Assembly (NCBI GenBank): GCA_020846935.1
Contig: JADLCY010000010.1
Span: 186,001-250,000, forward strand
DNA length: 64,000 nucleotides
Direction: 5' to 3'
Source: Gemmatimonadaceae bacterium
GTDB lineage: Bacteria; Gemmatimonadota; Gemmatimonadetes; Gemmatimonadales; Gemmatimonadaceae
Positions 13,479 through 26,947 of the stretch are shown one piece after another. Made by a program: the position numbers and the translations under genes. The notes beneath the pieces were generated by a model, which searched no databases, was not told the origin of the DNA, and was given only the letters and a program-made list of their open reading frames with translations. Every line of letters begins with the position of its first letter. Within the stretch, counting starts at the first letter, position 1.

Positions 13479-13503
13479 GCCGATCGCCGGCCTGAAATGA
13501 CCA

Positions 13504-13533
13504 GGGGCGCCGCACACCGCGGCGCCCCTTTTT
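13504..13533 (+). terminator. Rho-independent terminator after typA and acidic gene
   Basis: ggggcgccgc (13504-13513) pairs with gcggcgcccc (13519-13528) around loop acacc, followed by five T. Classic intrinsic terminator for the typA/acidic-protein transcript. Confidence 0.92.
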
Positions 13534-13730: not shown

Positions 13731-14870
13731 CTAGCGAATCGCGAGTCCCAGACCCACGCGGTCCCTCGTGAGCGGCACGACGGTGATGCCGAGCGATGGG
13801 CGGCCGCCGCCTGGGAGCGAGGCGCCATCGCGCGCGATGATGGCCGCGGCCCGTGAACGCGAGCGGCGCGCGTACGCGCTGGACTCGATCGCCGCCATGA
13901 GCCATACGGCGCCCGCGGTGGCAAGGCCGGCCACGAGTCGGGGCCTCGTCACCTTCGTCACCGTGTCGGTGTAGCGATTGCCGAACGGGTCGGTGAATGT
14001 CTGCGTCTCGGTCTTTTCCTGCTGTCGCCAGGCGAAACCGATCGCTCCACCCACGACGCCGAGCGTGAGCACGCCAAGCACGGGACGCCCGGTGTTCATC
14101 TGGCCAAGGCCGGGGACGAGCAGGCCGGAGCCGAACGCCTGTCCCGGCCCGTACACGCGATCGGGCAGGCGCGACATCGCCGCGCGCACCGTCCCCTGGT
14201 CGGCCGCGCGCGGCGAGAGGTCGAGGTAGCGCTCGAAGTCCTGCATCGCGATGGCGCGTTCCCCGCGGGCGGCGCGCGACAGGGCCCGGTTGAAGTACGG
14301 CTCGGGTGCGTTCGGCACCGTGGTGGCCACGGCGCCGAACACCGAATCGGCGGCAGCGTACTGTTGCCGGCGCAGGAGGGCCACGCCGGACTGGAAGTTG
14401 GCCCGCGCTTCTTCGAGTCGAGCCAGTTCATTGGCCGGCGTGAGGCGCACGATGCGCCCGCGCACCTCGTCGGCATCGGTCGCGGTGGTGGCGAGGCCGA
14501 GGTACCGACAGTAGGCGCGTACGGCCGAGGTGTTGTCCTGCAGCGCCTCGTACTCGCGGCCCAGATAATACGCGAGTCGCGCGTTGGACGGCACGAGCGT
14601 GGCCGCCTTGGCGAAATTGTCGCGCGCGACGGCGTGTTCACCGAGGAGCGCCGCGTCCTGACCGTCGGCGATGAGTTGTTGCGCCTCGGCCTCGGCGGTG
14701 GGATTGGGCGGTGTGGTGGTGGGCGTCGGCGCCTCGAACGCCGCGCAACCCGTCACCCCGCCGGCGGCGAGCGCCGTCTTGAGCTGAAAGCCCTGCGCGT
14801 TGCTGCGCGTGGCGGTCGCGACGATGAGCGCTGCCGCCAATGCGGCCGCTCGGTGACAGCCACGCCTCAT
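13731..14870 (-). CDS. Exported TPR protein, last gene of the FHA/kinase operon
   Basis: 379 residues. The ATG at 14870 is chosen because it begins a signal peptide (ALAAALIVATATRSNA) and overlaps the stop of the upstream Ig-like gene as ATGA; the frame is open further upstream but only as shadow. Tetratricopeptide-like helical repeats cover about residues 65-210 (GEHAVARDNFAKAATLVPSNARLAYYLG and similar). The C-terminal part has two hydrophobic stretches around GSGLLVPGLGQMNTGRP and LVAGLATAGAVWLMAA, common in envelope TPR proteins. Probably an envelope scaffold that works with the co-translated Ig-like lipoprotein and kinase. Confidence 0.8.
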   Translation of the reverse strand: MRRGCHRAAALAAALIVATATRSNAQGFQLKTALAAGGVTGCAAFEAPTPTTTPPNPTAEAEAQQLIADGQDAALLGEHAVARDNFAKAATLVPSNARLAYYLGREYEALQDNTSAVRAYCRYLGLATTATDADEVRGRIVRLTPANELARLEEARANFQSGVALLRRQQYAAADSVFGAVATTVPNAPEPYFNRALSRAARGERAIAMQDFERYLDLSPRAADQGTVRAAMSRLPDRVYGPGQAFGSGLLVPGLGQMNTGRPVLGVLTLGVVGGAIGFAWRQQEKTETQTFTDPFGNRYTDTVTKVTRPRLVAGLATAGAVWLMAAIESSAYARRSRSRAAAIIARDGASLPGGGRPSLGITVVPLTRDRVGLGLAIR

Positions 14871-17800
14871 TGGACCGTGAGGAGCAGGGTGCCCACCTTG
14901 CCCTCGCACGTCACGGTCATCGTGGCCGAGCCCGTATTCATCGCGTTTGCGGTGGCGTTGAAGGAGAAGGTGCCTGCCGCGATCGTGACGGCGGATGCCG
15001 CCGATACGCTGATGATCGATGGGGCGCTGCTCACGATGGAGCACGTGCGCCCGCTCGGGGCGAACGCCGGTCCGCCACCCACCACGGTGACCGCCACGTC
15101 CACCTGCTGCGTGGTGCCAAGGCCGAGCGTGGAGTCTGGCGAGGAAGTGACGGTCACGGTGTTGATGGGCACGAGGTTCACGGTGGCAAGCACGCTGTCC
15201 TTCTTTATGCCGCCCATGCCCGTCCCCGGCGACGTCTCGGCGATGACGTAGACCTGCCCGGTGTCAGCCAGGGTCGCCGACCCGGACGTCGCATTGATCG
15301 AGATCTTGGCGTTGGACGCGCTCCACGTGACGGTGCGCCCGGTGAGCGTATTGCCGGCGGTGTCGGCCAGCAGTGCGGTGAACGTGGGAGTGGTGCCGTG
15401 TGTCACCGAGGTTGGCGTGATCGTGATGGTGTGCGTCGGCACGAGGCTCACGGTCAGCGTGAACGAGCCCGTCTTGGTTTCTGACGTGGCCGTGATCGTC
15501 GCGCTGCCGACCGCCACCGCGGTGACGACGCCTGACGAGTTCACGGTGGCCACGCTGGCATTGGACGAACTCCAGGTCACCGGGCGATTGAGCACCGCAT
15601 TGTTGATGTCACGCGGTTGCGCCGTGGCCTGCACGGTCTGTGTGACATAGATGCTCGAGTCGGGTGCCTCGACCGTCACGGAGTTCACCGGGTAAAGCAC
15701 TCGCACCGGGAAGTTGGCGGACTGGCCCTCAACGAGGGCAGTGATGGTGGCTGAGCCGGGTGCGAGACTCGTCACGATCCCCGCCTGACTTACTGAGGCA
15801 AACGCTGCTCCAGCCGGCTGGACAGACCACGATACCGAGCGGCCAAAGAGCTCCACGAGTGCCGCATCGAAGAACCTCGCCGTCAGTTGCTTTGTACCCG
15901 CGTGTATGATCGAATCACCCATCGTCGTCGACGTGAGGGTGACTGACGCGACCGGAGGGAGCATGCGCAGCGTGCGGCTTACGGACTGCCCGTTGACCGA
16001 CACGGTGAGTGTGGAGCTACCAGCCGCGACGTAAGTTGCTGGGAGGTTCACCTGGCCGTTCTGGTCGGTCACGTAGGGTCCGGCGGGGATCGTCACAAAG
16101 GCGGGATTTGGCGCCGTGACCGTTAGCGTGCGACCCGGCAAGGGCGAGCCACCTGACGACGTGGCAGTTACTACCAGTGGCAGCGTCTGCGTTACGAAGA
16201 GCGAGTCAGCCGGCATCGGCGGCGACAGGACGAGCGAGGCAACGGGCGCCAGAACCCGGATGACCTTCGTGGCCGAAACCGATTCGCTCGTCGCCCGGAT
16301 TGTGGCGTTGCCCGGAGCAAGGGCGGTCACCACCCCCGTGGAGGCGTTCACCGATGCAAAGGCCGATCCCGCACTCACGTCCCAGAATACTGGTCGGCCC
16401 GTAAGGACGACGCCGTTCACGTCCTTGAGGGTGTCGACCATCTGAATCGTGCCGGTCCCGATGACGGAATCACCGGGCGATCCGACAATGACGCTGCTAA
16501 CGGGTCGCAACAAGCTAAACACGCGCGAGCCCGTCTTGCCTTCGCTGGTTGCCGTGATAGTCGCGCTGCCGTAGTTGACGGCGGTGACGACCCCGCTCGG
16601 ACTGACCGTCGCGAAGGTCGGGTGGACGCTGTTCCACGTGGTCGGGCGGATACCGAGCGTATCGCCGTTCGCGGCCAGCCTGATGGCCGTCGCGTTGATC
16701 GTGGCACCGGGCGCGCCAATCACGGAGTCTTGCGGGCTCATTGCAAGAGACACCGTCGAGACCGTATCGAGGATGCGCGCCACGAACGTAGCGGACACGT
16801 CGCGGGTCGCGGTGATGGTTGCGCTGCCAGCTCCCACGCCGGAGATCGTGATTCCAGTGATCTGGCCCGATGCATTGGATGTCGCTGACAACGGGCTGAC
16901 GGTAGCTATGGCAGGGTTTGATGTGGAGAAGCTGACACTGCGGCCCTGCAACAGATTGTTTGCCGCGTCACGCAGCGTCGCGGTACCCGTCAACGATGGT
17001 TGCCTGGCCAGGATCTGTGAGTCGGGTGCGATCGCCAGGGTGATCGAGGCGACCGGCGCCACGTTCTGCACGGTGATCAGCGCCGTATCTCGAGGAGCAG
17101 TCAGCGTGTCCTGGAGCGGCGAGTACACCAGAAGCTCAATGCGCGCCGAGCCGGATCCAACGCCAGTGACGACACCGGATGTCACCCCAACGGTTGCAAA
17201 CGCGGGGTCCAGGCTCAGCCAGCGAACGCTTCGGCCACTGACGGGAAGGAGCGTGCCGGCCGCATTGCGAATCGTCAGTGCCAGCGGCAACGTCGACCCA
17301 ACGCTGAGTGTCGCAACTGCCGGGGAAACGACTGTCGTCGCTACCGGTGCCCATGAGACGTTCACCGTCGTCGTCGCCGAGGGCGTGCTCCCACCTGGCC
17401 CACCACCCGGCGCCGACGCCGTGATCGTGGCCACACCGCCCCCCGCGCCGATCAGCGCCGTCACCTGCCCGTTCGACGAATTCACGCTCACCAGCGGATT
17501 GTTCGACGACCAGAAGAACGTGCGCCCCGCCAGGACATTGTTGTTCGCGTCACGCGCCGTCGCGGTGAGGACCAGCGGCGCCGCGTTTCCTTCCTGCACC
17601 GACGCCGGGTTGGGCGCCACCGTGATCGACGCGATCGGCGTCGAACTCACGGTGATCGTGGCCGTTCCGCTCACACCCTCCGTCGTGGCCGTGATCGTCG
17701 CGGTTCCCTGGCCAACCGCGGTCACCACGCCGGTGGTGCTGACGGTCGCGACGGCGGTGTTCGACGACGACCAGATGATCGTGCGGCCAATCGGTGAGAG

Positions 17801-19525
17801 CGGCAGCCCGTTGGTGCCCGTGAGGTTGGGCACCAGGGTTTGTGTTCCGCCCGGAGCGAGGGTGGCCACGCTCGGCACCAGCGCGATTGCGCCGACCGGC
17901 ACCGGCGACACGGCGTACGTGCCGGTGCCGATCACCCCGTCCACGGTCGCCGTGATCGTCACCGTGCCCGGCGCGATGCCCAGCACGCGTCCCGTCGACG
18001 ACACGGTCGCGATGGCCTCGTTGCTCGAGGACCACGTCGGCACCTTGCCGGTGATGGGGTTGTTGTTGGCGTCGAGCACCTGCGTGTTGAGCTGCAGCTG
18101 CGTGCCCTGCTGGATCGACCCGGTCGATGGCACCACCCGCACCACCGACACGCCAACGGTGGTGACGGTGATCGTCACGCTCGCCGAGACGCCTTCGGTC
18201 CCGGCAAAGATCACCGCGGAGCCCGGGCCGACCGCCGACACCAGACCACTCTGCGACACGGTCGCGACGCTCGGCGCGCCGGAGATCCACGTCACGATGC
18301 GCCCGGGGAGGGTCACCCCGTTGGCGTCCCTTGCGGTGGCCGTGAGCTGCTGGGTGCCGCCCACCAGCACCGTGGCGCCGTTAGGCGCAATGGTGATGCT
18401 CGCCACCGGCACCGGCGTCACCGTGATGGTCGCCGAGCCCGTGACGTTGCCCACGCTCGCATTGATGCGCACCGAGCCGGCGTTGATCCCGGTGACGAGG
18501 CCGGTCTGCGACACGGTCGCCATCGACGGTTGATCGCTGCTCCATGCGATCGTCCGGTTGAGCACGTTGTTGTTGGCATCCAGGGCCTGAGCGGCCAGCT
18601 GCGCCGTCTGACCGGAGGCCACCGTCGCCGTCGTCGGCGTCACGCGGACCGACGCGACCGGCACATCGGTCACGGTGAGCCGCGCCGTCCCCGTGCGACC
18701 TTCACTCGTCGCACTGATCGTGGCCGACCCGGCTGCGACGGCCGACACGAGTCCCGTGGAGGAAACGGTGGCGACAGCATTCGCGCTCGACGACCACGTG
18801 ACCACGCGTCCGGTGAGCGTCTGGCCCGTGGACGACGCGGTGGTCGCACCGAGCTGCAACGTCTGGCCAACCACGAGCGACCCGGTCGACGGGCTCACGG
18901 TGACGGAGGCCACCGGCACCGGAGTGACGGTCACGACCGACGAGCCGACGACACCATCAACCGTGGCAGTGATCGTGGCCGAACCCGCCGCGACGCCCGT
19001 GACCACGCCGGTGGAGGTGACTGTCGCGATCGTGCCCGGCGTGCTGCCCCACAACACGGTGCGCCCAGCGACCGCGGCTCCGGTCGCATCAACAGGCTCG
19101 GCGCGGAGCGTCACCGCGTTCCCGACCTGCAGGCTGGCGGTCGCCGGTGTGATGCGGACCTGCGACACGGGCCGCGCGGTGACGCCGACCTGTACGATGG
19201 CCGACTTGCCTCCAGCGCTCACGGCTACCTGCGTGTTGCCGGCAGCGACTCCGGTGATCACGCCGCTCTGTGAGACGGTCGCGACCGCGGCGTTCTGCGT
19301 CGCCCAGAACATGCTCCGTCCATTCACCGTCGCGCCGTCCGCGCCGACCAGCCGCGTCGCGATGGTGCGGCTCTCGCCGACGGTCATCGACACGCCGGGC
19401 GGCGTGACGTCGATCCGGTCGACGGAATCGCTGTCGGGCGACAGGGGATTGTCGCACGACACGGAGCCGAGGAGGAGGCAGGCGAGCGCGCGAAGCGCGA
19501 CGCGTCGGGCGTGCAGGGCGATCAT
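14867..19525 (-). CDS. Giant Ig-like (BIG2) repeat lipoprotein
   Basis: 1,552 residues. The N-terminal signal ends in a lipobox-like LGSVSC, so the protein is probably lipid-anchored. From about residue 37 to the end there are 17 consecutive units of 80-95 residues, each opening with a pattern like PVASVTVSPSTGSL and containing a WSSSNxxVATVSxxGxVTxVxxGxATITA core, the hallmark of bacterial Ig-like group 2 domains. Such stalks usually present or anchor surface structures. The middle units (9-14) are more diverged. It starts three bases after the kinase-RCC1 stop and its stop overlaps the TPR gene by four bases, so all are translated from one message. No catalytic domain is present. Confidence 0.9.
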   Translation of the reverse strand: MIALHARRVALRALACLLLGSVSCDNPLSPDSDSVDRIDVTPPGVSMTVGESRTIATRLVGADGATVNGRSMFWATQNAAVATVSQSGVITGVAAGNTQVAVSAGGKSAIVQVGVTARPVSQVRITPATASLQVGNAVTLRAEPVDATGAAVAGRTVLWGSTPGTIATVTSTGVVTGVAAGSATITATVDGVVGSSVVTVTPVPVASVTVSPSTGSLVVGQTLQLGATTASSTGQTLTGRVVTWSSSANAVATVSSTGLVSAVAAGSATISATSEGRTGTARLTVTDVPVASVRVTPTTATVASGQTAQLAAQALDANNNVLNRTIAWSSDQPSMATVSQTGLVTGINAGSVRINASVGNVTGSATITVTPVPVASITIAPNGATVLVGGTQQLTATARDANGVTLPGRIVTWISGAPSVATVSQSGLVSAVGPGSAVIFAGTEGVSASVTITVTTVGVSVVRVVPSTGSIQQGTQLQLNTQVLDANNNPITGKVPTWSSSNEAIATVSSTGRVLGIAPGTVTITATVDGVIGTGTYAVSPVPVGAIALVPSVATLAPGGTQTLVPNLTGTNGLPLSPIGRTIIWSSSNTAVATVSTTGVVTAVGQGTATITATTEGVSGTATITVSSTPIASITVAPNPASVQEGNAAPLVLTATARDANNNVLAGRTFFWSSNNPLVSVNSSNGQVTALIGAGGGVATITASAPGGGPGGSTPSATTTVNVSWAPVATTVVSPAVATLSVGSTLPLALTIRNAAGTLLPVSGRSVRWLSLDPAFATVGVTSGVVTGVGSGSARIELLVYSPLQDTLTAPRDTALITVQNVAPVASITLAIAPDSQILARQPSLTGTATLRDAANNLLQGRSVSFSTSNPAIATVSPLSATSNASGQITGITISGVGAGSATITATRDVSATFVARILDTVSTVSLAMSPQDSVIGAPGATINATAIRLAANGDTLGIRPTTWNSVHPTFATVSPSGVVTAVNYGSATITATSEGKTGSRVFSLLRPVSSVIVGSPGDSVIGTGTIQMVDTLKDVNGVVLTGRPVFWDVSAGSAFASVNASTGVVTALAPGNATIRATSESVSATKVIRVLAPVASLVLSPPMPADSLFVTQTLPLVVTATSSGGSPLPGRTLTVTAPNPAFVTIPAGPYVTDQNGQVNLPATYVAAGSSTLTVSVNGQSVSRTLRMLPPVASVTLTSTTMGDSIIHAGTKQLTARFFDAALVELFGRSVSWSVQPAGAAFASVSQAGIVTSLAPGSATITALVEGQSANFPVRVLYPVNSVTVEAPDSSIYVTQTVQATAQPRDINNAVLNRPVTWSSSNASVATVNSSGVVTAVAVGSATITATSETKTGSFTLTVSLVPTHTITITPTSVTHGTTPTFTALLADTAGNTLTGRTVTWSASNAKISINATSGSATLADTGQVYVIAETSPGTGMGGIKKDSVLATVNLVPINTVTVTSSPDSTLGLGTTQQVDVAVTVVGGGPAFAPSGRTCSIVSSAPSIISVSAASAVTIAAGTFSFNATANAMNTGSATMTVTCEGKVGTLLLTVQ

Positions 19526-19528
19526 GGC

Positions 19529-22141
19529 CTAACGATTGGCCCCGGCCACGCGCGCCGGTGCGCTGGCACTTTCCTGGTCGCCCGAACCCAGCTGACCGTC
19601 CACGTTGTAGCCCCAGCAGTACGCTTCCCCGCCGGAGACGGCGCACGTGTGCGCCCCGCTGGCGTTGAGCGCGCTCAGGGCGCCCAGTCCGCGGATCGCC
19701 ACGGGCCGGCCGCGGTCGACGGTGGATCCGTCGCCGACCTGTCCGTAGGCGTTGCGCCCCCAGCAAAAGCCGCGACCATCGGCGGTCCGTGCGCACGTGT
19801 GATAGTCGCCGGCCGCGACGGTGCTGAACGGCCCGCTGGCCTCGACGCGCTGCGGCGTCGGTCCACCGCTCGTGCCTCCGGTCCCGAGCTGTCCATACTG
19901 ATTCTGTCCCCAGCACCAGGCATCGCCACCGGTGGTGACCGCGCAGGTGTGGGAGTTCCCCGCCGAGATGCTGATGAAGCGTTCGCTGGTCAACACCGGC
20001 ACGGGCGAGGTGTGGTCGGTGGTCGTGCCGTCGCCGAGCTGCCCGGCGTCATTGCGCCCCCAGCACAGCGCTTCGCCGCTGCGCGTGAGCGCACACGTGT
20101 GCTGGCCACCAACCGCGATGGCGCCGGCCGGGCCGCCTAACGCGACGCTCACCGGTGTGCTGCGTCCGCTCCGCGAGCCGTCGCCCAGCTGACCGCGTGC
20201 ATTGCTTCCCCAGCACTGCACGGCTCCGCTCCGCGTGAGACCGCAGGTGTGCAACCGGCCCGCGCGCACGACCCGGAAGGAGGCGCTGCCGGACACGCGC
20301 ACCGGGGCGTTGCGCGGCGTCATGGTGCCGTCGCCGAGCTGCCCGCTTTCGTTGGCCCCCCAGCAGTACGCGTCACCGTCGCTGCTCGCGCCGCAGGTGT
20401 GTGAACCGCCGGACGAGACGAACGCAAACGCAAACGCGCCGGCCACGAGGGCGGGCGTCCGCCGCGAACCGAACGTTCCATCGCCGAGCTGGCCACTCGT
20501 ATTGCTGCCCCAGCAGAGCGCGCGCCCGTCGCCGTCGATCATGCAGGAATGCCGCGCGCCGGCGGCGATCGTCCCGCGATCGGTGGAGAAGGCGACCGCG
20601 GGCGTGACGGGTTCGGCCGGTTGCGGCTTGACCGAATCTGCTGGGGCCGTGGCGGGCGTGACGGTCGGCACCGAAGTCGGAACGGTGGTCGGCGGCTGGC
20701 GCACCGAGTCCTGACGCGGCGGCGTCATCGCGGCCGGTGGGATCGCGGCTGCCGCGGAATCCACCTGGTGCGCCTCCCCGGTCGCCGCGATCGAGTCCAC
20801 GGCCACGGCGGTATCGGGCGGTGCGATGAACGGCGCCTCGACCGTGGCGGCGTCGGCAAAGCGCGCGGAGTCGGCCGTGGGCGTGGTCGCGTTGACCGGG
20901 CGAAACTGCATCCACGCGAGGAGTGCGACCGTGGTCGCTCCGGCGAGGCCAAGGATCGCGGGGAGCCAGCGCCGCTTGCGCTCGGGCTGGTCGAACGGCA
21001 CCGAGATCGTGGGCTGGCCCCACGGAGACGGCAGCCGCGGCACTTCACCGGATGCCGTCGCCGACTGTTCGTTGGCCGAACTGGGCGTGGTGCCCATCGG
21101 CGTATCTCCACGACGGAACTGCACCGTCGAGGACTGTGGCGACACGGCGCGCACTTCGACCGTCCGGCCGCGCGCGCCCGCTTTCTTTCGTTTGCGCGCC
21201 GCCGACTGCCATTCCTTGAGGCCCGGCAGCTTGTCGGTGCTGGAGAGCAGCGTCAGGAAGCGCGCCGCGCTCGGCCAGCGGTGATCCGGCTTCTTGGCCA
21301 TCAGTCCCTCGAGGAGGAACTGGAGGCGCGGCGGCACGTCGGGGCGGGCGATGTCGAGCGGTGGGAGCGCGTCGTGCTTCTGGCGATAGATGACGCTGTA
21401 GAGGCTTTCGCCCATCCAGGGCCGCTGGCCGGTGAGCATCTCCCATCCGACCATGCCGAGGGCGTAGAGGTCGCTGCGCCCGTCGAGCGAGCCGCCGTCG
21501 ATCTGCTCGGGCGACATGTAGGTCGGCGTGCCGATCGCCGTGCCCGTGGCCGTCAGCTCGGTGTTTTCGGTGATCGAGCGCGCGACACCAAAGTCGGAAA
21601 GCAGGGCGCGCCCGGTGACCTCGTCGAGGAAGATGTTCTCCGGCTTGACGTCACGGTGGACGACGCCACACCGGTGCGCGTACGCCAGGGCACGCGCGAT
21701 GTCCTTGAGCACGCCCTCGGCGCGATCGACCGGCAGTCCGCCGTTGGACAGGGCAGCCTTGAGCGTGTGCCCGGGCACGATCTGCATCACCAGCGCGAGC
21801 CCGTTGTTCAGCCGCTTGATCGCGTGCAGCGAGACGATGTTCGGATGCTCGAGCTGCGCGACCGTGCGCGCCTCGCGGGCGAGCCGCGCGACCGCTTCTT
21901 CGTCGGCGTGGAATCGCGGGCGCACGACCTTGACGGCGACCTCGCGGCCAAGCGCGCGTTCGCGCGCGCGGTAGACCACGGCCATCCCGCCGCGCCCAAG
22001 TTCACCCAGGAACTCGTATTCGTCCGAGAGCTCGACGGGCCACCCCGTCGTCGCGTCCGTCGTCGCGCCGTCGCGCACGTTCGGTTCGGTCACGGGCGGA
22101 GCCCCCTCCGCCGCGGCGTGGAGCGCGGTGTCATCGCGCAC
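19529..22141 (-). CDS. Transmembrane Ser/Thr kinase with seven RCC1 repeats
   Basis: 870 residues from a GTG start. Residues 42-305 are a Hanks-type kinase with every key residue: GELGRGGMAVVY loop, VAVK (Lys71), HRDVKPEN (Asp164), DFG (183-185) and GTPTYMSPEQ. A basic, Pro/Ser-rich juxtamembrane part leads to one membrane helix at about 392-412, then a Pro/Thr-rich linker. Residues 521-865 hold seven RCC1 units, each with CWGxNxxGQLGDG and HTC motifs, enough for one seven-bladed propeller outside the membrane. So the propeller probably senses something outside and controls the cytoplasmic kinase. It overlaps the upstream FHA gene by 11 bp; FHA domains bind phosphothreonine, so that protein is the likely partner. 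Confidence 0.95.
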   Translation of the reverse strand: MRDDTALHAAAEGAPPVTEPNVRDGATTDATTGWPVELSDEYEFLGELGRGGMAVVYRARERALGREVAVKVVRPRFHADEEAVARLAREARTVAQLEHPNIVSLHAIKRLNNGLALVMQIVPGHTLKAALSNGGLPVDRAEGVLKDIARALAYAHRCGVVHRDVKPENIFLDEVTGRALLSDFGVARSITENTELTATGTAIGTPTYMSPEQIDGGSLDGRSDLYALGMVGWEMLTGQRPWMGESLYSVIYRQKHDALPPLDIARPDVPPRLQFLLEGLMAKKPDHRWPSAARFLTLLSSTDKLPGLKEWQSAARKRKKAGARGRTVEVRAVSPQSSTVQFRRGDTPMGTTPSSANEQSATASGEVPRLPSPWGQPTISVPFDQPERKRRWLPAILGLAGATTVALLAWMQFRPVNATTPTADSARFADAATVEAPFIAPPDTAVAVDSIAATGEAHQVDSAAAAIPPAAMTPPRQDSVRQPPTTVPTSVPTVTPATAPADSVKPQPAEPVTPAVAFSTDRGTIAAGARHSCMIDGDGRALCWGSNTSGQLGDGTFGSRRTPALVAGAFAFAFVSSGGSHTCGASSDGDAYCWGANESGQLGDGTMTPRNAPVRVSGSASFRVVRAGRLHTCGLTRSGAVQCWGSNARGQLGDGSRSGRSTPVSVALGGPAGAIAVGGQHTCALTRSGEALCWGRNDAGQLGDGTTTDHTSPVPVLTSERFISISAGNSHTCAVTTGGDAWCWGQNQYGQLGTGGTSGGPTPQRVEASGPFSTVAAGDYHTCARTADGRGFCWGRNAYGQVGDGSTVDRGRPVAIRGLGALSALNASGAHTCAVSGGEAYCWGYNVDGQLGSGDQESASAPARVAGANR

Positions 22142-22874
22142 GGAACCGGAACACGAGCGCGCCCATCTCCACCAGGTCGTCGTCGTTCAGCAACTGCGCG
22201 CTGTTCACGCCGTCGAGCGCAGCGCCGTTCACGACCACCGGGTTGGTGCGCGAGAGGTTCGTGAGGCGCCAGCGGTCCCCTTCGGGTGAGAGCCGCGCGT
22301 GGGTTCGCGACACCGTGGGTTCGAGGAGTTGCACGTGACGATACGGCGGGCCTTCCTTGCGCCCGAAGGTGATGTCGGGCGACTCGCCCAGCGCGGGATG
22401 CACGAAGCGCACTTCGTGACCCGCATCCGGGCCGCCGACAACCTCCAGAAAACCCTGAAGGAACTGCAGCGTTCCATCGCTCGGTCGATGAAATCGCAGC
22501 GAGTGGCCCATGACCACTTCAGGTGCGATCGTGCCCGGGGCAAACCGGCCCGTGGTCGCCGTGACCGGGTCTTCGACGGCGCTGATCGGCCCCGAGAGCG
22601 GGACCGCGACGTCCGCGATGAGCGGCTGCGCGAAGATCCGCTGATCGACCGCGGTCGACCGATGCGCCGAGGTTGCCGGCGGTGTGGCGCGCGAGCCCGC
22701 GGGCATGACGAGCGGGCCAGCGCTCATGCCCGAAACCACGAGCAACGGATTCCCGTGCGCGCGCAGCTCTTCGTCGCGTCGACGACGGTTCATCCACATC
22801 GCGGCAACGATCGCCAGCGTCGCCGTCGCCAGCGTACCGAGGATGATGAAAAGCCCCGCGAGAGAAACGCGCAT
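22131..22874 (-). CDS. Membrane-anchored FHA-domain protein, first gene of kinase operon
   Basis: 247 residues from the ATG at 22874, preceded by a ggag ribosome site; the frame is open upstream to 22976 but without a better start. One N-terminal membrane helix (GLFIILGTLATATLAIVAAMW) is followed by an RRRR stop-transfer, a low-complexity linker and a C-terminal FHA domain with ITFGR, VSRTHARL and LTNLSRTNPVVVNG. FHA domains recognise phosphothreonine, and the next gene, which it overlaps by 11 bp, is a Ser/Thr kinase. A paralogue with the same plan lies 211 bp upstream. Confidence 0.9.
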   Translation of the reverse strand: MRVSLAGLFIILGTLATATLAIVAAMWMNRRRRDEELRAHGNPLLVVSGMSAGPLVMPAGSRATPPATSAHRSTAVDQRIFAQPLIADVAVPLSGPISAVEDPVTATTGRFAPGTIAPEVVMGHSLRFHRPSDGTLQFLQGFLEVVGGPDAGHEVRFVHPALGESPDITFGRKEGPPYRHVQLLEPTVSRTHARLSPEGDRWRLTNLSRTNPVVVNGAALDGVNSAQLLNDDDLVEMGALVFRFRAR

Positions 22875-23084
22875 CTCACTCCATCTGCTCGCTTTCGGGC
22901 TCACCGCGCCCAAATGCAAAGACCGCCCGTGCCCAGTGCCCTGGTCGAGCCGACAAGGAAGTAGTTCACTCGGCACGCATTGACGCGTCCGTGTGACTTT
23001 CCGCTAATCTGAAGCGCTGTAAGTGACGACGCCAGCCAGCGTTGCGGCTGCGCTACAGTCTATCGGTCCTTCTGTCGCGAGAGC

Positions 23085-23870
23085 TCAGCGAGACCGGAAA
23101 CGGAAGATCACCTCGCCCATCTCGATCCGGTCGCCATCGCGGAGCACGACGGATGGCGATTCCTCGCTCATGGCGAGGCCGTTGACCGAGACCGGATTGG
23201 TCCTGGAGAGGTTGGTGAGCGTCCAGGTTTTCCCTTCGAGCGACATGCGAGCGTGCTGCCGCGAGACCGTGTGTTCCTGGAGCTGGACGTGGCGGTATTG
23301 CGGCCCTTCGGCGCGGCCGAAGGTAATCGTCTGGCCGTCCGGACCGGCCGTGCGGACGAACCGGATCTCCTGGCCCACGTCGCGTCCCTCCACGACTTCC
23401 AGCTTGCCGGGGAGGAACTGCAGCGTGCCGTCGACCGGCTTTTCCAGCCGGAGCGTGGAGGCTGGGGAGTGGCTGCCCTCCCGGTGGCCGTGCCTCGGGT
23501 CGCCCGCCACCTGCAGCTTGAGCACGCGGCCCGGTTCTTCGGCTTCCGCGGCTCGTGCGGCCCGCGCTTCCACCTGGATCGCATCCATCCCGAGCGTCGG
23601 ACGCTCATAGGCCACCGGCTCGGCGACCGGGGCTGGGACCGGAGGCGCGTACTGGCTGGCGGTGGGCGGCTGCGCTGGCGCGGAGGGCGGCGTGGGCGGT
23701 CGCTCAGGCCTTGGCGGCACGATGGCCCTGGAATCGCGGCCGAACGGGGCGATCGCGATGGGGCTGGACTTCATGCGCCGGCGTTTGAGGCTGGGCAGGA
23801 AGTAGCCGAAGATCATCGCAAGCACGATGACCCCCAGCGGAATGCCGACGAGCACGAGGGGACTGAGCAA
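23085..23870 (-). CDS. Second membrane-anchored FHA-domain protein
   Basis: 261 residues from a TTG start. Plan: one membrane helix (LVLVGIPLGVIVLAMIFGYFL), basic cluster KRRRMK, a Pro/Ala-rich linker and a C-terminal FHA domain (ITFGRAEG, VSRQHARM, LTNLSRTNPVSVNG). About half the residues of the C-terminal 125 match the FHA protein encoded at 22131-22874, so the two are tandem duplicates. The 210-bp gap between them suggests separate transcripts or a promoter in the gap. Probably another phosphothreonine reader for the downstream kinase. Confidence 0.9.
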   Translation of the reverse strand: MLSPLVLVGIPLGVIVLAMIFGYFLPSLKRRRMKSSPIAIAPFGRDSRAIVPPRPERPPTPPSAPAQPPTASQYAPPVPAPVAEPVAYERPTLGMDAIQVEARAARAAEAEEPGRVLKLQVAGDPRHGHREGSHSPASTLRLEKPVDGTLQFLPGKLEVVEGRDVGQEIRFVRTAGPDGQTITFGRAEGPQYRHVQLQEHTVSRQHARMSLEGKTWTLTNLSRTNPVSVNGLAMSEESPSVVLRDGDRIEMGEVIFRFRSR

Positions 23871-24376: not shown

Positions 24377-24961
24377 TCAGCCGAGGAGCCTTGGGTCGTA
24401 CTCGAACGGCCGTTTGGCGATGATGCTCGCATTCGACGCGTCCGGGTGCCTGGGGTTGATCAGTATGTTGTACTCCTCCGGAACCGGTGCGGCGGGCACA
24501 CGAAGCAGTGCGGTTGTCGCCTCGGAAAGCCACTTGTCTCCGATGCCCTGGCAGGTTGGGCAGCTCGTGCGTTTGGCCCACTCGCGCCCCAGCCGTCTTA
24601 CGTCAACGGTTTCCACTGCGAGGGTGTCGGGTACCTCAATGGTCAGCGCGACGAGATCAGAAGGCGCGTCGGTCGGGTCCAGGTGTACGAGATATTCCAG
24701 CGCCGCCAGCGCAAGCGAGGTTGGTGTGTAGATGACAGGCGCGCCAGGCGAGTTCCAGCGGCCGCCATACAGCCGTGCGCCTTCGCCATCCAGCGCGCTG
24801 AACGGGTCTCGGCAGAGGCGATAGAGATACAAATCTCCCCACTCAGCTCGCGATGCCGTGTTCAATGCGGCCGAGGACTCGCTCAACGGCGAGAGCGCCG
24901 GCGTCACTGTCGAGCAACGCAAGCGGACGCGCCCCTCCAAGAGCCCGATTGGGCTTCGCAA
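24377..24961 (-). CDS. RES-domain toxin (NAD-consuming type)
   Basis: Toxin of the RES/Xre (MbcT-like) type II system; known members deplete NAD+. Family marks: LYRLCRDPFSALDGEGARLYGGRWN near the start, ALEYLVHL in the middle and the C-terminal NASIIAKRPFEYDPRLL. These contain the Arg, Glu and Ser that name the family. The start is uncertain: the given TTG makes 194 residues; a GTG at 24907 would make 176. Either way the gene begins inside the antitoxin gene, which ends at 24843, so the two are translationally linked. Confidence 0.87.
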   Translation of the reverse strand: MRSPIGLLEGRVRLRCSTVTPALSPLSESSAALNTASRAEWGDLYLYRLCRDPFSALDGEGARLYGGRWNSPGAPVIYTPTSLALAALEYLVHLDPTDAPSDLVALTIEVPDTLAVETVDVRRLGREWAKRTSCPTCQGIGDKWLSEATTALLRVPAAPVPEEYNILINPRHPDASNASIIAKRPFEYDPRLLG

Positions 24962-25280
24962 GCCACCGATGCGCCTTGTCGTCGTCGGCGAACGCGCTTT
25001 CGGCGCGCACGATCAAACGAGCCAGGCGGGCCAAACGATCGGACTCATCTGCCGAGAGAGTGATCTCTTCCTTGCGCTTGCGCTGAAGGGTGCGTGCGCT
25101 TCCTACGGCGCGATAGATGTCGCTTTGGATACCGACGAAAGCCGCAAACTCCTCGAAGACTCGATCAAGCGCGCGCGCGGGAATCCCGGCACGTACGGCC
25201 GCGATCAGGTCGTACTCCGACTCGTCCCTTCCGAGGACGCTCCTTCCCCCGAGTTTCCTGGCAACAGCAGCGACAGTCAT
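24843..25280 (-). CDS. Xre/MbcA/ParS-type antitoxin (DUF2384)
   Basis: 145 residues from the ATG at 25280. The N-terminal part (LIAAVRAGIPARALDRVFEEF) resembles the Xre-like helix-turn-helix of these antitoxins; the C-terminal half (RLARLARLIVRAESAFADDDKAHRWLAKPNRALGG and on to ALAVERVLGRIEHG) is the MbcA/ParS toxin-binding domain. It neutralises the RES toxin encoded by the overlapping downstream gene and normally also represses the operon. The frame stays open to 25454, but that stretch shows no domain. Confidence 0.88.
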   Translation of the reverse strand: MTVAAVARKLGGRSVLGRDESEYDLIAAVRAGIPARALDRVFEEFAAFVGIQSDIYRAVGSARTLQRKRKEEITLSADESDRLARLARLIVRAESAFADDDKAHRWLAKPNRALGGARPLALLDSDAGALAVERVLGRIEHGIAS

Positions 25281-25513
25281 TTCTTCGATGCGCCAAGTGA
25301 CGTTAGCCGTATACCCATTTGGCGCTCCGTGGGGCACCCCCCGCATGCTCCGGAGAGGGAGGAAGTGCGCTGAGAGTCCCCGATCGCGCGCAGTCCGTTG
25401 GTTGTCTGTTTCCCCACAGCAACTCCCGGTCTGGGGGCAAGGGGTTCCCGGCACATCGCGATGTCCGTCAACGACTTACAGGCATGGTGCCGCCCACGAG
25501 CCCCTGTTCGGGA

Positions 25514-25601: not shown

Positions 25602-26023
25602 TCGCTGCTTGTCGGACTCAGGTCGCCGCCGTCAGGGGGTGGAGGTACACTGCGAGCGCGCCATGGCCTCAGCTTCCGAGCCGTGTCAGGAGCGCAGCCG
25701 GGCCCCTACCACTGCTGTCTCGCGACCTGACCTGCCCTCGCTTGCGCGACTCCGAGCGGTTCTTGGCTCTCCCGGCCTGACGGCGGGGTTGAGCACCGAG
25801 GCGTTGAATCAGGACCTTTCGGTTCGGTTGGAGCGCGGCCGGGTCGCCCTTCACGCGGGCGAGAGTCACCCCGATAATTGCCGGAGAGGACGTGCGTCGA
25901 GGAACTCGCCCGCCAGTTTCAAGGCCATGCATGCCAAACACGCCACCCTGGGCCTCCGCGCGAGAACCCTGCCTTCGACCTGGATATGATCCATCCGCTG
26001 CGCAGCACCAGCAGCCGCATCGC
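25602..26023. other. Intergenic stretch, nothing supported
   Basis: Frames are open on both strands here but none has a ribosome site, a recognisable domain or plausible composition. No promoter was recognised for the nuclease gene that begins at 26024. Likewise 25281-25513, between the antitoxin gene and the tRNA fragment, shows no gene. Confidence 0.5.
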
Positions 26024-26947
26024 ATGAAGTCCTACTACCGCGTGATGCTGGGAGCCAAGAGCGTGCACGCCGAAGCCTGCCTGTCAGGCGGGTTCATTGG
26101 TACGGACTTCGACCTGCATCAGGACCTTGGCGGCAAGCTGTCGACGGACTGGCGTGCATTCAACAAGGCGTTCATCCCCGTCTATCTCGCCATCCATCCC
26201 GGGAAGTCCAGGATCAGCGCTGGCCTGGCCTGCGGTGCGGTCTGGACCGTATCGAAGGGCATCTTGAAGGGCGACGTGGTGCTGTGCCCGGATGGGAGTG
26301 GCCAGTATCGCGTAGGCGAGGTGACGGGAGACTACCACTACGAAGCGGGCGAAATTCTCCCGCATCGCCGTGCGGTGCGCTGGCTCGGAGTCGGCCTCGA
26401 GCGCATCGCCATGAGCGAGGCGCTGCGAAACTCGACCGGCTCCATCGGCACGGTGAGCGACATCACGCAGCATCGGCAGGAGATCGAGAGTCTGCTTGCC
26501 GGCGCCGCCGCACCGATCCTGATCTCCACCGATGTCACCGTGGAGAACCCTTCGGCGTTTGCCCTCGAGGCGCACCTCGAGGACTTCCTCGTGGTGAACT
26601 GGTCGCAGACCGAACTTGGCAAGGACTACGACATCTACGAGGAGGACGGCGAGAGGGCGCAGCAATACCAGACCGATACCGGGCCACTCGACATCCTGGC
26701 CATCAGCAAGGACAGAACGCGACTCCTCGTCGTTGAGCTCAAGAAGGGTCGGGCCAGCGACGTCGTGGTCGGACAAACGCTGCGCTACATGGGCTTCGTT
26801 CAGGAGCAGCTTGCCGAAGTTGGCCAGCAGGTGCTCGGCGCGGTGATCGCCCTCGAAGACGACCAGCGTCTGCGGCGCGCGCTGTCCATGACGCCCACCA
26901 TCAGCTTCTACCGCTATCAGGTCAGCTTCAAGCTGGTGAAGGGCTGA
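26024..26947 (+). CDS. NucS/DUF91-like PD-(D/E)XK nuclease
   Basis: 307 residues from the ATG at 26024; the frame runs upstream to 25892 without a better start. The C-terminal half is a NucS-type nuclease: LEDFLVVNW, then PLDIL (Asp223), VVELKKG (Glu238, Lys240) and VVGQTLRYMGFV, which supply the D-ExK site and the Gln/Tyr motif. The N-terminal half has no clear family; its size and GDVVLCPDGSGQYRVGEVTGDY stretch suggest a beta-barrel DNA- or base-reading domain. The fusion fits a restriction-type or mismatch nuclease. No methyltransferase is adjacent. It lies just outside the tRNA-Ile insertion, in a typical place for accessory defence genes. Confidence 0.82.
   Translation: MKSYYRVMLGAKSVHAEACLSGGFIGTDFDLHQDLGGKLSTDWRAFNKAFIPVYLAIHPGKSRISAGLACGAVWTVSKGILKGDVVLCPDGSGQYRVGEVTGDYHYEAGEILPHRRAVRWLGVGLERIAMSEALRNSTGSIGTVSDITQHRQEIESLLAGAAAPILISTDVTVENPSAFALEAHLEDFLVVNWSQTELGKDYDIYEEDGERAQQYQTDTGPLDILAISKDRTRLLVVELKKGRASDVVVGQTLRYMGFVQEQLAEVGQQVLGAVIALEDDQRLRRALSMTPTISFYRYQVSFKLVKG

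Follow-up and report, generated by a model that had tools for sequence, protein, structure and literature searches.

Transmembrane kinases with a propeller outside the membrane are already known (PknD), as are RCC1-like propellers on plant receptor kinases (CR4), in which the propeller is N-terminal and the kinase C-terminal. The plant receptors CRINKLY4/ACR4 (PDB 7a0j, 7a0k) are single-pass receptor kinases and carry an extracellular seven-blade RCC1-related propeller with a Cys pair in each repeat. According to the available part of PMC4617170, the pair has the form C(X10)CWG in each repeat of CR4, bonds have been proposed within each blade, and a TNFR-like domain is also present. The available part of PMC1262709 describes PknD/Mbk of Mycobacterium tuberculosis with an N-terminal Hanks kinase, one transmembrane segment (TM) and C-terminal NHL repeats outside. 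The PASTA kinases (PknB/Stk1) share the kinase and TM layout, and secreted Cys-paired RCC1 proteins and BLIP-II possess the same blade type outside the membrane, without a kinase and without a TM link to the cytoplasm. The eukaryotic kinases NEK8 and NEK9 are cytosolic or ciliary, without a TM between kinase and RCC1 region and, to our knowledge, without paired Cys; in their published descriptions the RCC1 region comes after the kinase. The open-licence PubMed Central literature yielded no paper describing a kinase-RCC1 receptor in bacteria, and a term search in the available part of a 2005 survey of bacterial kinase architectures (PMC1262709) gave no mention of RCC1.

The window analysed here, a whole stretch of 64,000 nucleotides of a Gemmatimonadaceae contig, harbours a kinase-TM-RCC1 open reading frame (ORF) of 870 aa, open over 19529-22141 on the minus strand. 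In the open-licence PubMed Central literature, no bacterial receptor kinase that combines an RCC1 ectodomain with a cassette of FHA, PP2C, Big_2 and TPR proteins was found. The gene and its parts are the following.

19529..22093, minus strand: receptor gene for kinase-TM-RCC1 (854 aa from the likely start GTG 22093; reading frame open up to 22141)
21275..22018, minus strand: Ser/Thr kinase domain (residues 42-289 of the 870-aa ORF; Pfam PF00069, catalytic residues)
20906..20965, minus strand: predicted single membrane helix (residues 393-412; hydropathy, AlphaFold2 helix, Lys/Arg flanks 4 vs 1)
20585..20905, minus strand: low-complexity Pro/Ala/Ser/Thr linker, predicted to be extracytoplasmic (residues 413-519; composition, low pLDDT)
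19532..20584, minus strand: seven-bladed RCC1 propeller (residues 520-870, seven Cys pairs; Pfam, AlphaFold2, PDB matches, pair census)

Pfam placed the Pkinase domain PF00069 at residues 42-289 with an E-value of 1.4e-48 and 166 bits, over the cut-off. An earlier note on this DNA had described the catalytic residues as intact, and K71, E90, D164 (HRD), N169 and D183 (DFG) were all found. With these residues and a single predicted TM, the sequence identifies the product as a putative Hanks-type transmembrane receptor Ser/Thr kinase. The PASTA kinase model of NCBIfam (NF033483) matches the kinase below its cut-off (274.8 vs 450 bits), and Pfam detected no PASTA repeats, no NHL match and no TNFR-like domain in the ORF. 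The protein shares the kinase-TM-propeller layout of PknD/Mbk, but possesses RCC1 instead of NHL repeats. Compared with CR4 the order is reversed, the kinase being N-terminal and the propeller C-terminal, and no evidence of common descent of the window and CR4 fusions was found. GTG 22093 is a more probable start of the gene than 22141, because an RBS-like GGAGGGGG is located just upstream, the stop of the preceding FHA gene lies 37 bp before, and the resulting 854 aa match the ortholog of locus L009.

The ORF has one membrane-length hydrophobic segment, with its peak at residues 393-411 (Kyte-Doolittle 1.78), and AlphaFold2 draws a helix at residues 393-412. Hydropathy and AlphaFold2 both predict, in agreement with the earlier note, a single membrane helix between kinase and propeller. 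Four Lys/Arg residues flank the helix on the N-terminal side and one on the C-terminal side (positive-inside), which predicts that the kinase is inside and the propeller outside. The linker comprises about 107 residues with 18% Pro, and the AlphaFold2 pLDDT is below 50 over residues 413-513. In most fusions the linker is ~103-170 residues long.

Pfam found seven stretches of RCC1 (PF00415) with an E-value of 6.2e-66 and 219.2 bits against a cut-off of 21.7. The AlphaFold2 model of this region, built on an alignment of 26 sequences (window and relatives), is one closed seven-blade propeller with pLDDT 95.1 and pTM 0.91. The description of seven complete repeats forming one full propeller agrees with both results. 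The closest solved fold is UVR8 (Z 55.4, 348 residues, 31% identity), followed by HERC2, RPGR and RCC1 (RCC1 Z 43.8), while BLIP-II (Z 27.8) and the CR4/ACR4 receptor-kinase ectodomains (Z 27.3 and 27.1) rank lower. A UV-B photoreceptor like UVR8 could be suspected from this best match. UVR8 blades carry GWRHT pentads with Trp. However, the pentads at these sites in the window propeller are GARHS, GGSHT, GRLHT, GGQHT, GNSHT, GDYHT and SGAHT, with the Trp replaced in 7/7 blades, and UVR8-like photoreception was rejected as vanishingly improbable.

The ORF contains 15 Cys, with C158 in the kinase and the other 14 in the propeller as seven pairs, which bears out the two Cys per blade reported earlier. 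The accompanying claim of HTC and CWG in each unit held for HTC in six of the seven blades, but blade 1 has HSC. The CR4-type C(X~10)CWG pair was found in 7/7 window blades with X9 or X8 between the Cys, which are 10 residues apart except in the last pair, where they are 9 apart; most window blades thus have X9, compared with C(X10)CWG in CR4 (PMC4617170, available part). In the AlphaFold2 model, the two Cys of each blade face each other across the two adjacent strands of a single hairpin, for example model residues C84 (strand 82-87) and C94 (strand 92-96). The hairpin turn of the seventh blade is one residue shorter in the model, so the Cys register is kept despite the spacing of 9. The structure prediction that the earlier note had proposed for the Cys pairing therefore gives, in a confident model, pairs facing each other in all seven blades, and this cross-strand register supports the suggestion that the Cys of each blade may be disulfide-linked.

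Exactly 14 ectodomain Cys, counted after the membrane helix, are present in 42/42 Gemmatimonadota fusions; in L076 no segment exceeded the hydropathy threshold, and its Cys were counted from residue 381. The spacing census took the 40 of 42 fusions with all 14 Cys in the excised propeller (L152 and L153, cut at the first detected blade, were left out), and over their 280 Cys pairs the spacing is 10 in 265, 9 in 14 and 11 in one. In blade counts that include near-duplicate loci, and from which 19 blades were dropped (lacking WG or gapped at the first Cys; five of them in kinase fusions), a Cys-blind profile found both Cys in 257/258 scored blades of kinase fusions, Gordonia included, and the first Cys alone in none. 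Non-kinase secreted bacterial RCC1 ORFs have the pair in 242/248 scored blades, an absolute rate biased upward since this set was partly retrieved with CWG-containing patterns. By these sequence counts, the C...CWG pair is a trait of exported RCC1 propellers and not special to the kinase fusion.

The genome to which the window belongs has DsbA-family matches at five places and VKOR matches at two, all over the cut-off, which fits an oxidising envelope. Disulfides in the propeller are likely, because of the pairing register in the model, the conservation of 14 Cys and the DsbA and VKOR matches. The invariance of the pairs in 42/42 fusions, with 14 Cys also in 2/2 scored Gordonia fusions, would suit a redox sensor, in which reductive stress in the envelope opens the seven Cys pairs and alters kinase activity. 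Nevertheless, the pair is as well kept in kinase-free secreted RCC1 proteins (242/248) and in plant CR4 (PMC4617170, available part), so that the bonds are more likely structural than redox-sensing, and we regard a redox sensor as very unlikely.

The kinase gene belongs to a conserved operon, in which kinase-RCC1 is accompanied by one or more membrane-tethered FHA readers, a Big_2 lipoprotein and a TPR protein. This operon, which the earlier note does not mention, is what is new relative to the known kinds, and it is the more informative aspect of the locus. The neighbours of the kinase gene are the following.

23085..23870, minus strand: membrane-tethered FHA protein 2 (Pfam FHA 182-252)
22131..22976, minus strand: membrane-tethered FHA protein 1 (Pfam FHA 202-272; likely start Met about 22874)
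14867..19525, minus strand: Big_2 Ig-like repeat lipoprotein, 1552 aa (Pfam Big_2, 13 stretches; lipobox by motif)
13731..14870, minus strand: TPR protein with hydrophobic C-terminal part (weak TPR matches; start inferred from overlap)

Both FHA proteins possess one TM. The phosphothreonine-binding motif of FHA domains (GR / SRxH / NG), named in the available part of PMC1262709, is kept in both, as GR, SRTH and NG in protein 1 and as GR, SRQH and NG in protein 2. The Big_2 lipoprotein gene begins 3 bp downstream of the kinase gene. The ATG of the TPR gene overlaps the Big_2 stop by 4 bp, and its orthologs sit in the same position.

At least 27 of the 99 genomes of the GTDB family carry a kinase-RCC1 fusion, as confirmed among the 30 loci inspected. 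The family-level set comprises 31 loci with 32 fusions (window, L009-L012, L014-L016, L072-L091 and L149-L151), L016 being counted without known family placement. Of these 32 fusions, 29 have an FHA gene at most 150 bp upstream, 25 have a Big_2 gene at most 150 bp downstream, and 19 have a TPR gene downstream. The FHA exceptions are L016, with the gene 818 bp away and a PP2C-like ORF between, the second copy in L075, with the gene 6.1 kb away, and L078, where the search near the fusion found none. A Big_2 gene was sought and not found downstream of the fusions in L015, L016, L091, L149 and L151, and the misses in L011 and in the second copy of L075 come from contigs that are too short (72 and 319 bp). 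In L075 (6540-16371), two RCC1-kinase genes flank a Big_2 gene in one cluster.

For comparison, identical queries were applied to the surroundings of 27 further kinase genes in the own genome, Big_2 being searched by single repeats with all filters off. An FHA neighbour was found in 0/27 and a Big_2 neighbour in 1/27, the latter being a kinase-TM-TPR protein whose gene precedes that of a Big_2+RCC1 lipoprotein (L006/L103). In this locus (L103 1826-7012, own genome C11:10000-25000) both genes are on the same strand, and the modules of the window operon appear rearranged.

Elsewhere in the class, ten fusions belong to other families (L142-L148 and L152-L154), and 10/10 have 14 ectodomain Cys. 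Five of the ten have the FHA gene at most 150 bp upstream and four have it at 598-999 bp; in L148 none was seen within the 193 bp of contig. A Big_2 gene within 150 bp downstream was found in 0/10. Together with its absence beside 7/32 fusions of the family set, this indicates that a Big_2 gene at this position is not obligatory. In L142, L143 and L145, motifs show a PP2C phosphatase fused to the FHA protein, with Pfam confirmation for L143, whereas in L147 (motif) and L154 (Pfam-confirmed) a PP2C gene separates the FHA gene from the kinase gene. The upstream ORF of L144 has the PP2C motif and a match to the FHA query, but the FHA motif was unmatched. The wider cassette can thus be described as writer, reader and eraser, with surface Ig-repeat and TPR proteins in some loci. 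In L143 (533-2233) and L145 (3518-5197), the TM-FHA-PP2C fused protein overlaps the RCC1 kinase gene by 4 nt.

The kinase-TM-RCC1 arrangement far exceeds chance expectation and has been kept in 42 Gemmatimonadota fusions. In the kinase tree, 29 fusion kinases group together with support 71/26, and with 100/100 when one further L012 kinase is included, and they stand apart from the 27 other kinases of the own genome. By itself, this tree weakly supports the monophyly of the fusions. In the propeller tree, the 42 Gemmatimonadota fusions form one clade (SH-aLRT 99), to which neither the 18 secreted propellers nor the three Gordonia fusions belong. The Gordonia fusions (L030, L031 and L039) are also kinase-TM-RCC1, with short linkers (25 aa in L030, 35 aa in L031), and their kinases fall elsewhere on the kinase tree. 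FHA, Big_2 and TPR neighbours were sought and none found in the 2/2 scored Gordonia fusions, L039 being below the blade threshold and hence unscored for neighbours. A single origin of all kinase-RCC1 fusions is not supported for Gordonia, as its kinase domains and propellers are both outside the Gemmatimonadota clade. Because both parts branch apart, the design most likely arose at least twice. RCC1, mostly known as a nuclear or secreted module, would thus be used repeatedly as a receptor-kinase ectodomain.

The ectodomain sequence drifts outside the frame residues, as might be the case if it were an inert spacer or surface decoration and the kinase were driven from the cytoplasm. This is highly improbable, considering that the seven-blade, 14-Cys build and the upstream FHA gene are kept across three GTDB families and that a second phylum (Gordonia) built the same fusion.

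Most bacterial Ser/Thr kinase sensors lack a known ligand. Among the 42 fusions, a search of the propeller for conserved patches that could bind a ligand recovered only structural blade frame residues and none that are blade-specific, and a fixed binding site is therefore not apparent. RCC1-type propellers are best known for binding proteins, and by title the PDB match list includes the complexes RCC1-Ran, BLIP-II-beta-lactamase and UVR8-COP1. Both results argue against a propeller that senses a small molecule or cell-wall fragment, with the Big_2 and TPR genes merely co-regulated outputs. Such sensing is thought to be the role of PASTA domains, bacteria are known to possess receptor kinases whose ectodomains bind the cell wall, and Big_2 is missing beside some fusions; nonetheless we consider a small ligand rather unlikely. 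The lack of a fixed conserved pocket suits a lineage-varying partner such as the Big_2 protein, whose length varies widely among fusion loci. With modest confidence, we consider it probable that the protein is a receptor kinase sensing an extracytoplasmic protein, with the co-encoded Big_2 lipoprotein as a candidate, while FHA proteins read phospho-Thr and PP2C resets the signal.

For this protein-sensing receptor, we infer the following course. The kinase would be cytoplasmic, with one helix crossing the inner membrane of the Gemmatimonadota envelope, and the flexible linker would carry a disulfide-braced propeller into the periplasm. Outside the membrane, the propeller may bind a protein partner, the candidate being the lipoprotein with Big_2 repeats, perhaps together with the TPR protein. 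This contact would alter the clustering of the kinase and lead to autophosphorylation. The kinase would then phosphorylate Thr sites recognised by the co-encoded membrane-tethered FHA proteins, and an FHA-based complex could assemble at the membrane as output, which PP2C from the cassettes of other families may reset. It is also conceivable, although doubtful, that the cassette is an envelope-surveillance system, complete in itself, in which the propeller on its long linker reads the state of an outer-membrane Big_2 lipoprotein, with the periplasmic TPR protein as part of the sensed partner, in a disulfide-braced, CR4-like design reached at least twice, in Gemmatimonadota and in Gordonia. Kinase-RCC1 would in any case be a small bacterial counterpart to the plant CR4 receptors. 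As likely partners are encoded beside the kinase and the cassette is kept in three families, candidates for ligand, substrate and eraser are directly testable.

In the surroundings of the operon, the search for a sigma-70-like promoter ahead of the FHA and kinase genes found none, where chance alone gives 0.6 on average. The plus strand of the window has a strong stem-loop and a T run at 13503-13529, between a converging TypA/BipA gene and the operon end. A RES-domain toxin and an Xre/MbcA-type antitoxin (PF08808, PF09722 and PF20432) are encoded directly upstream of the operon, at 24377-25454 on the minus strand. At 25892-26947 on the plus strand, the window encodes a protein with a sub-threshold match to the NucS C-terminal nuclease (23.1 vs 24 bits).
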